From the NCBI GenBank assembly GCA_004195045.1, contig SGBC01000003.1:248001-312000 (forward strand): DNA of 64,000 bases. The letters run 5' to 3'. Positions 10,735 through 32,960 of the stretch are shown piece after piece. Made by a program: the position numbers and the translations under genes. The stretch is from Candidatus Acididesulfobacter guangdongensis. Its GTDB lineage: Bacteria > SZUA-79 > Acidulodesulfobacterales > Acidulodesulfobacteraceae. The stretch's first letter is position 1. Each line of letters begins with the position of its first letter. The notes under the pieces were generated by a model. It had not been told where the DNA came from, did not search any database, and was given only the letters and a program-made list of their open reading frames with translations.

Positions 10735-10809
10735 GCGGGAATAGCTCAGTGGTAGAGCATCACCTTGCCAAGGTGAGGGTCGCGGGTTCAAGTCCCGTTT
10801 CCCGCTCCA
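10735..10809 (+). tRNA. tRNA-Gly (anticodon GCC)
   Basis: Acceptor stem GCGGGAA pairs with TTCCCGC; the D-arm contains AGCTCAGTGGTAGAGC, the anticodon arm CACCT-TGCCAAG-GTG carries GCC at 10767-10769, and the T-arm GCGGGTTCAAGTCCCGT is canonical. The CCA end is encoded (10807-10809). All stems are complete, so this is a functional tRNA. Confidence 0.97.
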
Positions 10810-10981: not shown

Positions 10982-11224
10982 TTATAATTTACCTTGTTTA
11001 TAAGTTATCATAAAACTAATGCTTTTGGAAAGATAATCGTAAATATTTTTTAAGAAAATCTTTCCGGCTTCTATCCTTTTTTTATTTAAATCGGATGGAC
11101 TTAAGGCTTTTGCAATTTCGTCGGCGTTGACGAAGGCGAGCCCTTTGTTTTTATTGAAAACATTAATAACAGTGGTCTTTTCGCTTCCGTTTGCCCCAGC
11201 TATTATAAATATATTTTTTTTTAT
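10982..11224 (-). pseudogene. Zeta-toxin-like P-loop protein, dead N-terminal fragment
   Basis: Reading leftward, an open frame of about 75 codons gives IKKNIFIIAGANGSEKTTVI, then FVNADEIAKALSPSDLNKKR and EAGKIFLKNIYDYLS. This is the N-terminal pattern of zeta-toxin/AAA-type small kinases. There is no ATG, GTG or TTG at the expected start (ATA instead), the Walker A glycine before Lys is replaced by Glu (GSEKT), and the frame ends before the rest of the kinase. It abuts the stop of the LysR gene. It is most likely a decayed remnant; the family call rests on the Walker A context and the NAD-I-A-LSP block. Confidence 0.7.
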
Positions 11225-12153
11225 GAAGTTATTGATTCCCCTTCCTTATTATAATTTTCAAACTCACGCATAGCTTTAAATTTCTCTACGAATTTTTCGG
11301 CGATTTCTATAAAAGCCTTTGCCGATAAAGAAAGGTTGTCTAAAGATTGTGCCGCTAACGCAATTTTTCTTTTTATTTCAGGTTTTATAGGAACGGAACA
11401 TATTCCGCTGTAATTAAGCGGGATTGCAAGATTGGGAATAACGGCGGCTCCGATACCTTCCCTGACCATTTCAATAATAGTGCCTATGTTGCGCGCTTCT
11501 ATATTTTTAATTTCATCCGTTTTCTTTGCAGAATTCATTAAATTAGATGTTACCAGCATTCCGCAGCTTGACCCTTTGAAAGTTAAAAGCGGTTCGCTTA
11601 CAAGTTCTTTTATACTTATGCTTTTTCTGCAGCATAACGGATGTTTTTCGTTAAAAACTGCGAATATTTTGTCTTCTAAGAGTTCAACTGATTCAAGTCC
11701 TTCTGCCGGAAGCACTACAAAACCTAAATCTACTGCGCCTTTTAACAGCCAATCCGTTACTTCCAAATCCGTTCCTTCAAACCATGAAACCTCAATTCCC
11801 GGATATTTGCGTTTGAATTCTTTTAAAATTCCGGGCAAAATTCTTATTGAAACACTTTGAAAACAGCCTATTTTAAGACTGCCGACCTGCAGATTTTTTA
11901 ATGCAGATATATCTTCTTTTAACCGGTCTATTCGGGTCAAGATATCCTTGGCATGATTATAAACTTTTTCGCCTGCTTCGGTAAGGGAAACGGTCTTTTT
12001 GTCGCTTTTAACCAATTTTATTTCAAGTTCGTTCTCAAGCGATGCTACGGAATGGCTCACGGCGGACTGCGTTATATAAAGAGCTTCTGCCGTTTTTGTG
12101 AAATTTTGTGATTCTACGAGAGTTTTTAAAACATTCAATTGAGTTAATGTCAT
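11221..12153 (-). CDS. LysR-family transcriptional regulator
   Basis: This is a 310-residue regulator with the LysR N-terminal winged helix-turn-helix (residues 1-60; FTKTAEALYITQSAVSHSV) and the periplasmic-binding-protein-like effector domain from about residue 90 (VGSLKIGCFQSVSIRILPGI, VDLGFVVLP, GIGAAVIPNLAI). Length and motifs are typical. It is divergent from the methyltransferase gene at 12396 across a 242-base gap, the usual arrangement when a LysR protein controls its neighbour. The effector is unknown. Confidence 0.93.
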   Translation of the reverse strand: MTLTQLNVLKTLVESQNFTKTAEALYITQSAVSHSVASLENELEIKLVKSDKKTVSLTEAGEKVYNHAKDILTRIDRLKEDISALKNLQVGSLKIGCFQSVSIRILPGILKEFKRKYPGIEVSWFEGTDLEVTDWLLKGAVDLGFVVLPAEGLESVELLEDKIFAVFNEKHPLCCRKSISIKELVSEPLLTFKGSSCGMLVTSNLMNSAKKTDEIKNIEARNIGTIIEMVREGIGAAVIPNLAIPLNYSGICSVPIKPEIKRKIALAAQSLDNLSLSAKAFIEIAEKFVEKFKAMREFENYNKEGESITS

Positions 12154-12395
12154 GAGTAAATAATCATTTTAATTATAAAAATTATTCATTTGATTCATTA
12201 TAATCCAAATTTTATAATATATTCAAGTCTATAGTTTTTATTTTGTTTCTAATTTTTATAATTATACGCTCCTATATTTTTTTTGTGGTTAAGTTCATAG
12301 TTAATTGATATTCAAGCAGATTAAGCGGTTATATATTTTATAGAGTTATAATAATTTCATTATTTCACTATTTAAATAAAATAGGAGGTATCAAA

Positions 12396-13187
12396 ATGAA
12401 AGATAATTGGAATGCAGAAGATTACGCAAAAAATTCTCAATGCCAGCTGCAATTAGGCGAAGAGCTTATTGAAAAACTTTCTTTAACAGGCAATGAATCA
12501 TTGCTTGATATAGGCTGCGGAGACGGAAAGATAACCGCAAAATTATCGAAAATTTTAAAAAATGGAGAAGTAGTCGGTATAGATGCATCAGAAAATTTAA
12601 TAAATTTTGCATCAAAAGAATTTCCAAACGATAAATTTCAAAATCTGACATTTTATCAAATAGATGCATGCGCTATTAACTTCTCTGAAAAATTCGATAT
12701 TGCTTTTTCCAACGCTTGTCTTCACTGGGTAAAAGACCATAGCGGCGTTCTTGGAAAAGTGCGTGCATGCCTTGAGCCGAAAGGCAGGATTTTATTCCAG
12801 ATGGGCGGACGCGGCAATGTAGGCGAAGTCTTAAATGCCGTAAAATTAGTCAGCAGCAAAGAAAATTGGAGCATGTATTTCGATAATTTCGTTACGCCGT
12901 ATTATTTTTACGATATAAAAGACTATGAGATATGGCTTTCGGAAAATCATTTTAAGCCTCTGCGTTTGGAACTGATTGAAAAAAATATTAAACATCCAAG
13001 CGAAGAAAGTTTTAAAGGCTGGTTAAGAACTACTTGGTTTCCTTTTACCGACCGCTTGCCGGAGGCGTTAAGGGAAACTTTTCTTGACGCAATATCGGAA
13101 ACTTATAAAATTAAGCATCCGGCAGACAAATCGGGCGGTATTAATGTAAAGATGGTTCGTTTGGAGGTTGAAGCGTATGCCGTATAA
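12396..13187 (+). CDS. SAM-dependent methyltransferase, trans-aconitate methyltransferase-like
   Basis: This is a 263-residue class I methyltransferase with a strong ribosome site (AGGAGG at 12383-12388). Motif I is LLDIGCGDGKITAKL (about residue 43), the acidic ribose-binding residue is in VVGIDASENLI, and FDIAFSNACLHWVKDH is characteristic of the Tam/BioC-like group. The C-terminal part WLRTTWFPFTDRLP resembles Tam proteins, which methylate trans-aconitate and related acids. The substrate here is not proven. It is probably controlled by the divergent LysR gene. Confidence 0.85.
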   Translation: MKDNWNAEDYAKNSQCQLQLGEELIEKLSLTGNESLLDIGCGDGKITAKLSKILKNGEVVGIDASENLINFASKEFPNDKFQNLTFYQIDACAINFSEKFDIAFSNACLHWVKDHSGVLGKVRACLEPKGRILFQMGGRGNVGEVLNAVKLVSSKENWSMYFDNFVTPYYFYDIKDYEIWLSENHFKPLRLELIEKNIKHPSEESFKGWLRTTWFPFTDRLPEALRETFLDAISETYKIKHPADKSGGINVKMVRLEVEAYAV

Positions 13188-13288
13188 ATTTTATATATTG
13201 GCATCAATGTGAATTCTTTTAAAATTGTAGTAAACATTATACCAGAAGGTACTTATGAATATTTTATTTATGCGTTCATTGTTTGTAA

Positions 13289-13386
13289 CGGCGTTTGTGC
13301 GAGTGGCAGGATGAAAGATATAAAGATGGATTTATAATTTTTGACAGGGACAAACGCCGGTGGTTCGATTCCCCTCACTCGCACCA
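13289..13386 (+). other. tRNA-Leu-like RNA locus, degenerate, overlapping a pseudoknot-forming inverted repeat
   Basis: Bases 13299-13386 (88 nt, the length of a tRNA-Leu) begin GCGAGTG and end CACTCGC-A-CCA, giving a perfect 7-bp acceptor stem, discriminator A and encoded CCA. A T-arm follows the pattern GGTGG-TTCGATT-CCCCT with one mismatched pair. The D-arm and anticodon arm are not canonical: the middle (13311-13345) is A+T-rich and no anticodon can be assigned. A 10-base segment CGGCGTTTGT (13289-13298) immediately 5' is the exact reverse complement of ACAAACGCCG (13350-13359) in the variable-arm region. It could be a tRNA pseudogene, a remodelled tRNA or a different structured RNA. Confidence 0.55.
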
Positions 13387-13618
13387 TTTTACAACGGTAA
13401 TTAGATCAGATATAAACAGATATTAAAAAACAGATATAGTTTCTTTGGTTTTAGTTAGCTTAGTTTCTCCTTTTTTTCCTGCTTTGCATATGTTTTTTTA
13501 CGAAAAGATATGGTTGAATTTTTCCAGAGATTGTTAATCAGAAGAATTAAGGATTATTTTTAGATTTCTGTTATTAGTATTTATAAAAAATAAAAACAGA
13601 AGTAAATAAACAGCTATA

Positions 13619-23603: not shown

Positions 23604-24629
23604 ATTTAAAAAAGATTATCAATACAATCCTTCTTCTTTAAGGACGGCAATAACGTTTTCTACTGTATAGTTTACGTTAAAAGCAATCTGTTCCGGAGTA
23701 GCTTTAAAGTTCCTGCGTAAGTTTATTATAAATTCCCTCTTGGCAGCTGATGCTCCTTCCGCTTTCCCTTCCGCTTTTCCTTTTTCAATTCCTTTTTCAA
23801 TTCCTTCCTTATAGAAAGGATCATCTTCCAGTTTTATGGTAATAGGCATTTTATCCTCCAGTTCTTTAGCAGTCTGTATTAAATTAGGTCTTAGATGTAA
23901 TAAGTTTATAAGCTTAAGTTTATAATCTTCAAGTTCCAACGGTTTAAGAGACGAAAGACGTGAAGTTACTTCCAATATTAAAGTTCTTTCATCTTTGGCG
24001 GAACAAAGCACGGAAAGAACAACATCGTTTAAATCGTCTGAACTTAAAAGTTCGTTGCAGTCTATGCTTTTTATGTCTTTAATAGAGTAGTTAAAACTAA
24101 GATGTTCTCTAATAATGGAGTTTTCCATGCTTAATGGTTTAGAACCTATATAAAGAACCGTCTGTTTTGGTTCTTTAGAGTAGATTGAATATATATAGGT
24201 ATAATACTTAAGCATCCTTAACGGCATCAAAGAATCGTTTTCCGTTTGAAGTTCAAGATGAAATATGCTGTCATCTTCAAGCCTTAAAAGAAGATCCGCC
24301 CTTAGCTCCTCTACCTTAGGAAAACTGACGTCTAAAGACTCAATCGCTTTCTTGCCGGTAAGTATCTCTACAAACTTTTTAGGATAACCTTTTAGTATAT
24401 CCTTTAGAGTTCTGTCATACTTGAAGTTAAAATCCGGCATCATGCTGTTAGATTATATTTTTTTATTTGTTTTATAGTTTCAGCATTTTAATATTTTATT
24501 CTTTATTATATCATAACATGTTGAAATTTGTAAAAAAATTATCTTTTAAAATTTAACCAAATTTTTATCCTTCGGTTAAGTTAATTATATAGTGTCATAT
24601 TTTATTCCAGTCAATTGGGGGGGGGGGGG
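23600..24629 (-). mobile_element. Rpn-type mobile element, copy A
   Basis: About 1030 bases are nearly identical to 31913-32960 in opposite orientation. Identity begins at a run of C (13 on the minus strand, 24617-24629; eight in copy B) and stops just after the nuclease gene at AAATTAAA. Flanking DNA differs between copies. No terminal inverted repeat or target duplication is evident. The near identity points to recent movement or gene conversion. Confidence 0.75.
23619..24440 (-). CDS. Rpn-family recombination-promoting nuclease / putative transposase, copy A
   Basis: This 273-residue PD-(D/E)XK-type protein of the Rpn/PDDEXK transposase family has its catalytic region at RADLLLRLEDDSIFHLELQTE (about residues 48-68), with Asp and Glu-Leu-Gln in the expected places. 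The C-terminal part carries the tail repeat GIEK x2, then GKAEGKAEG, and a final helical domain. The start at MPDF is chosen because copy B begins there; copy A also has an ATG one codon earlier. Rpn proteins are DNA endonucleases reported to promote RecA-independent recombination. It differs from copy B by two GIEK repeat units and very few bases. Confidence 0.9.
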   Translation of the reverse strand: MPDFNFKYDRTLKDILKGYPKKFVEILTGKKAIESLDVSFPKVEELRADLLLRLEDDSIFHLELQTENDSLMPLRMLKYYTYIYSIYSKEPKQTVLYIGSKPLSMENSIIREHLSFNYSIKDIKSIDCNELLSSDDLNDVVLSVLCSAKDERTLILEVTSRLSSLKPLELEDYKLKLINLLHLRPNLIQTAKELEDKMPITIKLEDDPFYKEGIEKGIEKGKAEGKAEGASAAKREFIINLRRNFKATPEQIAFNVNYTVENVIAVLKEEGLY

Positions 24630-31912: not shown

Positions 31913-32960
31913 CCCCCCCCAATTGACTGGAATAAAATATGACACTATATAATTAACTTAACCGAAGGATAAAAATTTGGTTAAATTTTAAAAGATAATT
32001 TTTTTACAAATTTCAACATGTTATGATATAATAAAGAAAAGATATTAAAATGCTGAAACTATAAAACAAATAAAAAAATATAATCTAACAGCACTATGCC
32101 GGATTTTAACTTCAAGTATGACAGAACTCTAAAGGATATACTAAAAGGTTATCCTAAAAAGTTTGTAGAGATACTTACCGGCAAGAAAGCGATTGAGTCT
32201 TTAGACGTCAGTTTTCCTAAGGTAGAGGAGCTAAGGGCGGATCTTCTTTTAAGGCTTGAAGATGACAGCATATTTCATCTTGAACTTCAAACGGAAAACG
32301 ATTCTTTGATGCCCTTAAGGATGCTTAAGTATTATACCTATATATATTCAATCTACTCTAAAGAACCAAAACAGACGGTTCTTTATATAGGTTCTAAACC
32401 ATTAAGCATGGAAAACTCCATTATTAGAGAACATCTTAGTTTTAACTACTCTATTAAAGACATAAAAAGCATAGACTGCAACGAACTTTTAAGTTCAGAC
32501 GATTTAAACGATGTTGTTCTTTCCGTGCTTTGTTCCGCCAAAGATGAAAGAACTTTAATATTGGAAGTAACTTCACGTCTTTCGTCTCTTAAACCGTTGG
32601 AACTTGAAGATTATAAACTTAAGCTTATAAACTTATTACATCTAAGACCTAATTTAATACAGACTGCTAAAGAACTGGAGGATAAAATGCCTATTACCAT
32701 AAAACTGGAAGATGATCCTTTCTATAAGGAAGGAATTGAAAAAGGAATTGAAAAAGGAATTGAAAAAGGAATTGAAAAAGGAAAAGCGGAAGGAAAAGCG
32801 GAAGGAGCATCAGCTGCCAAGAGGGAATTTATAATAAACTTACGCAGGAACTTTAAAGCTACTCCGGAACAGATTGCTTTTAACGTAAACTATACAGTAG
32901 AAAACGTTATTGCCGTCCTTAAAGAAGAAGGATTGTATTGATAATCTTTTTTAAATTAAA
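31913..32960 (+). mobile_element. Rpn-type mobile element, copy B
   Basis: This is the partner of 23600-24629 in opposite orientation. It begins with eight C (31913-31920) and ends just after the nuclease gene. Compared with copy A it has two more 12-base GIEK codon repeats and a shorter C run, the expected marks of slippage. REP-like GGTGTC motifs follow immediately. Confidence 0.75.
32096..32941 (+). CDS. Rpn-family recombination-promoting nuclease / putative transposase, copy B
   Basis: This 281-residue twin of the protein at 23619-24440 is identical apart from four GIEK units instead of two before the GKAEGKAEG tail. The PD-(D/E)XK region RADLLLRLEDDSIFHLELQTE is intact. Both copies are full length, so either could be active. 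The two copies flank the pilin/glycosyltransferase locus in inverted orientation, which would let recombination invert the whole roughly 8-9-kb segment. Confidence 0.9.
   Translation: MPDFNFKYDRTLKDILKGYPKKFVEILTGKKAIESLDVSFPKVEELRADLLLRLEDDSIFHLELQTENDSLMPLRMLKYYTYIYSIYSKEPKQTVLYIGSKPLSMENSIIREHLSFNYSIKDIKSIDCNELLSSDDLNDVVLSVLCSAKDERTLILEVTSRLSSLKPLELEDYKLKLINLLHLRPNLIQTAKELEDKMPITIKLEDDPFYKEGIEKGIEKGIEKGIEKGKAEGKAEGASAAKREFIINLRRNFKATPEQIAFNVNYTVENVIAVLKEEGLY

Follow-up and report, generated by a model that had tools for sequence, protein, structure and literature searches.

The closest described systems for a tRNA-like locus of the kind considered here are the class II tRNA-Leu (RF00005), the tRNA pseudogenes and pseudo-tRNAs of bacteria, and tmRNA (RF00023). 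Among the pseudo-tRNAs, tRNA-Other of Bacillus cereus has a role outside translation (PMC3399842). Here we report a tRNA-like locus in the genome of Candidatus Acididesulfobacter guangdongensis, situated in a stretch of 64,000 nucleotides that was analysed as a whole and is referred to below as the window. In our judgement the locus is likely to be a foreign tRNA-Leu relic, non-functional, acquired horizontally and lying at a rearrangement junction.

The perfect 7-bp acceptor stem, discriminator and encoded CCA that an earlier note had described, together with a total length of 88 nt, are all present in the sequence at 13299-13386 (Table 1), with A73 at 13383 and CCA at 13384-13386. The acceptor stem can be extended to 9 bp (13297-13305 with 13376-13384), and whichever ancestor the locus had, both its paired acceptor and its T-loop are intact. 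The T-stem carries a single mismatch, and the T that causes it, at tRNA position 51, occurs in none of 124 comparison tRNAs. Compared with a functional tRNA-Leu, the 7-bp acceptor, A73 and CCA are there, while the intact cloverleaf with its D-arm, anticodon arm and long variable arm is not. The note had further denied the locus a canonical D-arm and anticodon arm; the D-stem is indeed absent, whereas a tRNA-Leu model finds an alignment for a degenerate version of the anticodon arm. This candidate remnant lies about where an anticodon arm is expected, and its anticodon position would read UAU rather than UAA.

Table 1. Features of the tRNA-like locus and its surroundings (window positions)
Feature	Position	Strand	Remarks
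Unique stretch holding the tRNA-like locus	13257..13600		Between independently syntenic blocks: left to about 13256, right from about 13601
Segment a, CGGCGTTTGT	13289..13298	+	Exact 10-bp complement of 13350-13359
5' acceptor strand, GCGAGTG	13299..13305	+	Exact complement of 13376-13382; acceptor typical of tRNA-Leu
Degenerate interior, equivalent of D, anticodon and variable region	13306..13358	+	From interior identity comparisons and shuffles
Possible remnant anticodon arm, about ATGGA TTTATAA TTTTT	13326..13342 (approximate)	+	tRNA-Leu covariance model R1, filters off; weak
Segment a', ACAAACGCCG, partner of 13289-13298	13350..13359	+	Exact 10 bp; last base is the first T-stem base
T-arm, GGTGG-TTCGATT-CCCCT	13359..13375	+	One T.C mismatch at 51-63; exact tRNA register to the acceptor
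3' acceptor strand CACTCGC, discriminator A, encoded CCA	13376..13386	+	From sequence and tRNA-Leu covariance model alignment

Neither ARAGORN, a check that the note had proposed, nor Rfam at its gathering threshold calls a tRNA at 13299-13386; the only tRNA that either reports in the window is a tRNA-Gly at 10735-10809, and permissive Rfam scoring gave nothing useful. We trained a covariance model on 28 tRNA-Leu genes from which the locus was left out. This model nevertheless aligns it at 27 bits (E 2.7e-5), a score that within the window the real tRNA-Gly alone exceeds. No unrelated position in the 64 kb scores above 10.5 bits, and a match of 12.5 bits comes from the locus read on its reverse strand. 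Working tRNA-Leu genes score about 80-94 bits, so that the locus combines significant similarity to the tRNA family with the loss of essential parts, as befits a pseudogene or relic. Bacterial genomes and viral contigs were also scanned with a composite pattern of acceptor, T-loop and CCA, which occurs there in at least 134 distinct sequences. Among the matches listed, only this locus goes unrecognised by ARAGORN, the remaining 133 all being ARAGORN tRNAs and nearly all of them tRNA-Leu (93 UAA, 24 UAG). Because the covariance scores and the pattern matches agree, the top half can be assigned to the tRNA-Leu type, which bears out the note's description of the locus as tRNA-Leu-like and lends support to its suggestion of a dead tRNA. 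An intact tRNA merely overlooked by the software is ruled out, the D-arm being absent and the T-stem mismatched.

The interior is far less telling. Its median identity to tRNA-Leu interiors is 48%, compared with 43% for random 53-mers from the window (95th percentile 50%) and 66% for pairs of working tRNA-Leu genes. The similarity to tRNA-Leu is weakly above chance, with 32 of 500 shuffles attaining the same mean score (about p 0.06), and we do not claim the interior as clear tRNA-Leu; judged from its sequence, homology to a tRNA-Leu interior is possible. That this similarity is only marginally above chance counts against a relic, as does the intact acceptor and T-arm standing beside a near-random interior, a pattern beyond even decay. 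When uniform decay was simulated up to the observed divergence of the interior, the top-half sites were never left intact (no joint cases); the comparison set had been selected by those same top-half sites, and because it is thereby matched to the locus the simulation has the value of a guide and not of a test. Decay spread evenly over the gene, which a simple neutral pseudogene would lead one to expect though it is not strictly defining, is thus not what is seen here, and since it fails to yield an intact top half with a diverged interior, either the interior has been partly replaced or the top half has been constrained.

Constraint on the top half would be expected of a tRNA-derived RNA working outside translation, in which a top-half minihelix would be retained to serve processing or charging, while a leader helix would switch it off via the variable region. 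We regard such an RNA as unlikely. It would account for the preserved top half beside the near-random interior, and pseudo-tRNAs with roles of this general kind do exist, as the B. cereus example illustrates; on the other side stands the T-stem mismatch base, found in no real tRNA of the comparison set. The idea is not absurd, and is possible but unsupported save for the uneven preservation. Its bearing on the remaining evidence, the leader and the search for homologues, is taken up in the following paragraphs.

The 5' flank of the locus is exactly complementary over 10 bp to the variable region (13289-13298 with 13350-13359), just as the note had stated, and the resulting helix a shares base 13359 with the T-stem and bases 13297-13298 with the extended acceptor. 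Matches of at least 10 bp arose in 11 of 5000 shuffles of the 30-nt flank, a figure that speaks for a functional RNA gated by its leader; against this, ordinary tRNA genes have equally long matches, with 3 of the 1166 tRNA genes in the genomic loci examined showing at least 10 bp in their 30-nt leader. The match is therefore uncommon, at about 0.2-0.3%, and it was picked by a reader seeking such features. Of 10-bp inverted repeats with 5 or more G/C, the window itself contains five distinct ones (6 k-mer pairs), compared with 0-3 in Markov sequences. Overall the locus folds in an ordinary manner (z -1.0 to -1.7), which likewise gives no help to a functional RNA. With the leader included, the helix-a fold (-29.5 kcal/mol) is favoured over a forced tRNA-like fold (-20.8 kcal/mol), as a leader-operated switch would have it; since the difference is about 9 kcal/mol, a tRNA would be hindered, not helped, by the leader. 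A full pseudoknot would oblige the 16-nt T-arm segment to bridge both helices end to end, and this geometry would argue against the T-arm and both helices forming together. The pseudoknot or switch put forward in the note consequently finds no backing in the folding scores, in the leaders of ordinary tRNA genes or in covariation, for which there was no homologue. Coincidence is the most likely origin of the leader match, and because ordinary tRNA genes sometimes display such matches, the apparent pseudoknot is no evidence for a new RNA device. Slightly less probable still than the general case is the specific arrangement of a tRNA-Leu-derived RNA that lacks the decoding half, retains the acceptor/T-arm minihelix and is gated by a mutually exclusive 10-bp leader helix with the former variable region.

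The acceptor/T-arm/CCA pattern is absent from all 29 other genomes of the phylum that were examined, and searches for a conserved RNA in 60 relatives, phages and plasmids returned just weak matches, either to a short T-arm or to A+T-rich sequence. Exact viral searches with two longer patterns found no match, while two 17-mer matches in the exact viral search had no tRNAs nearby and are taken as chance. The covariation of the helices that the note had proposed to examine accordingly found no homologue in relatives, phylum genomes or viral searches, and the absence of one from the 60 relatives, the phages and the two exact viral searches leaves a functional top-half RNA with no sign of conservation. 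The host genome encodes 46 canonical tRNAs, in which tRNA-Leu is represented by five kinds, and its functional tRNA set is complete. A copy of a host tRNA is ruled out, given that the 3' end of the locus has no second copy in its own genome at up to 3 mismatches and that the acceptors of the host tRNA-Leu genes differ.

It is very improbable that the locus is a tmRNA-like RNA in reduced form, carrying a short frame between acceptor and T-arm. Such a frame does exist (ATG AAA GAT ATA AAG ATG GAT TTA TAA, 13311-13337) and opens within an ATGA stop-start overlap, and the T-loop matches the tmRNA model, if not significantly (7.1 bits, E 1); an A+T-rich interior easily yields such short frames, however, and there is neither conservation nor any other tmRNA domain. 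The host moreover possesses a normal tmRNA elsewhere in the genome, scoring 187 bits, and with the model match insufficient, tmRNA identity was rejected.

The locus occupies a unique stretch with no clear second copy in its own genome. To its left, relatives share LysR, a methyltransferase and about 70 bp, and this block also has a second, partly degraded copy in the same genome (C1:894-897 kb); downstream of the methyltransferase, the content varies among relatives. The duplication relates window 11007-13256 to C1 about 894.5-896.8 kb and comprises the LysR 3' region and the methyltransferase, the latter 99% identical and the other LysR copy fragmented. To the right, homology to relatives begins again at about 13601, with a histidine-kinase block, and at this edge three same-genus genomes carry a rubrerythrin-like gene as neighbour instead. 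The two blocks are not adjacent in the relatives examined, nor is their junction common to them; with no site in common, the relatives offered no place at which to look for the intact tRNA-Leu that the note had named as its refutation. Such a setting, the near-random interior and an 89% match of the 3' 35 nt to the tRNA-Phe of a distant genome would suit a recombination chimera or attachment-site remnant, in which a mobile element left a tRNA 3' end as half an attachment site, with unrelated DNA making up the interior. We think this doubtful: it leaves unexplained why, 70 nt upstream, a 5' acceptor strand matches perfectly, the 53-nt interior has a length that fits tRNA-Leu, no intact donor tRNA carrying the 3' end is present in the genome, and inspection by eye recognised no integrase or phage gene adjoining the locus, an absence that also tells against a relic brought in by mobile DNA. 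A terminator was looked for and not found.

One 3.3-kb contig of a same-genus genome bears a dense tRNA array and is of mobile-element type, so that the group probably has mobile carriers of tRNAs; any connection between that contig and the present locus would be an inference. The array (L386, G006:C141, 990-2123) comprises at least 12 tRNAs flanked by small ORFs without Pfam match, and includes a tRNA-Arg-like copy with a palindromic insert (about 1855-1961) and a tRNA with an odd anticodon loop and no CCA (1593-1677).

Several further features of the window deserve mention in their own right. A motif close to GTGAACATTATACCAGGAG lies at about 13228-13249 and recurs at loci L004, L007, L009 and L010, upstream of several different genes within the family, in some cases accompanied by an upstream inverted half, ATGTTCAC; it is perhaps a shared operator or leader. 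Two near-identical ORFs (MPDFNFKYDRTLKDILKGYPKKFVEILTGKK...) in opposite orientation, at 23619-24443 (-) and 32096-32941 (+), differ in a short GIEK repeat and have no Pfam match. Asparagine-rich low-complexity runs such as NNYNKNNNNNNYNN interrupt otherwise conserved enzymes at 6-2357 and elsewhere, including a HypF-like protein and cobalamin-pathway proteins.

To return to the tRNA-Leu relic, its history may be pictured as follows. A tRNA-Leu gene, probably for the UAA isoacceptor, a type that viral contigs commonly carry, would have been acquired horizontally, presumably with a phage or other mobile element, and would have lost its tRNA function after arrival, its interior disappearing through decay plus local replacement. 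It would now rest where the LysR/methyltransferase block meets the histidine-kinase block, and its leader match, if transcribed, would make a misfold more favourable than the tRNA-like fold. As a relic the locus is of little importance, one more tRNA remnant, of use as a sign that mobile DNA was once present at a rearrangement junction; had selection in truth kept the top half, it would exemplify a tRNA reduced to its acceptor/T-arm domain.

Set against the known systems, the locus resembles tRNA-Leu (RF00005) in its acceptor (GCGAGTG/CACTCGC), A73, CCA, T-loop, total length and full-length covariance model alignment, and departs from it in lacking a D-stem, in its degenerate anticodon and variable arms, in the T-stem mismatch and in scoring below the Rfam threshold. 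With tmRNA (RF00023) it shares an acceptor and T-arm without a normal anticodon arm, whereas at 88 nt it has none of the other tmRNA domains, and the genome has a normal tmRNA of its own. Like the bacterial tRNA pseudogenes and pseudo-tRNAs it is non-canonical, tRNA-like and plausibly linked to mobile DNA; tRNA-Other (PMC3399842), in contrast, has a recognised anticodon, relatives and a phenotype, none of which is known for the locus described here.
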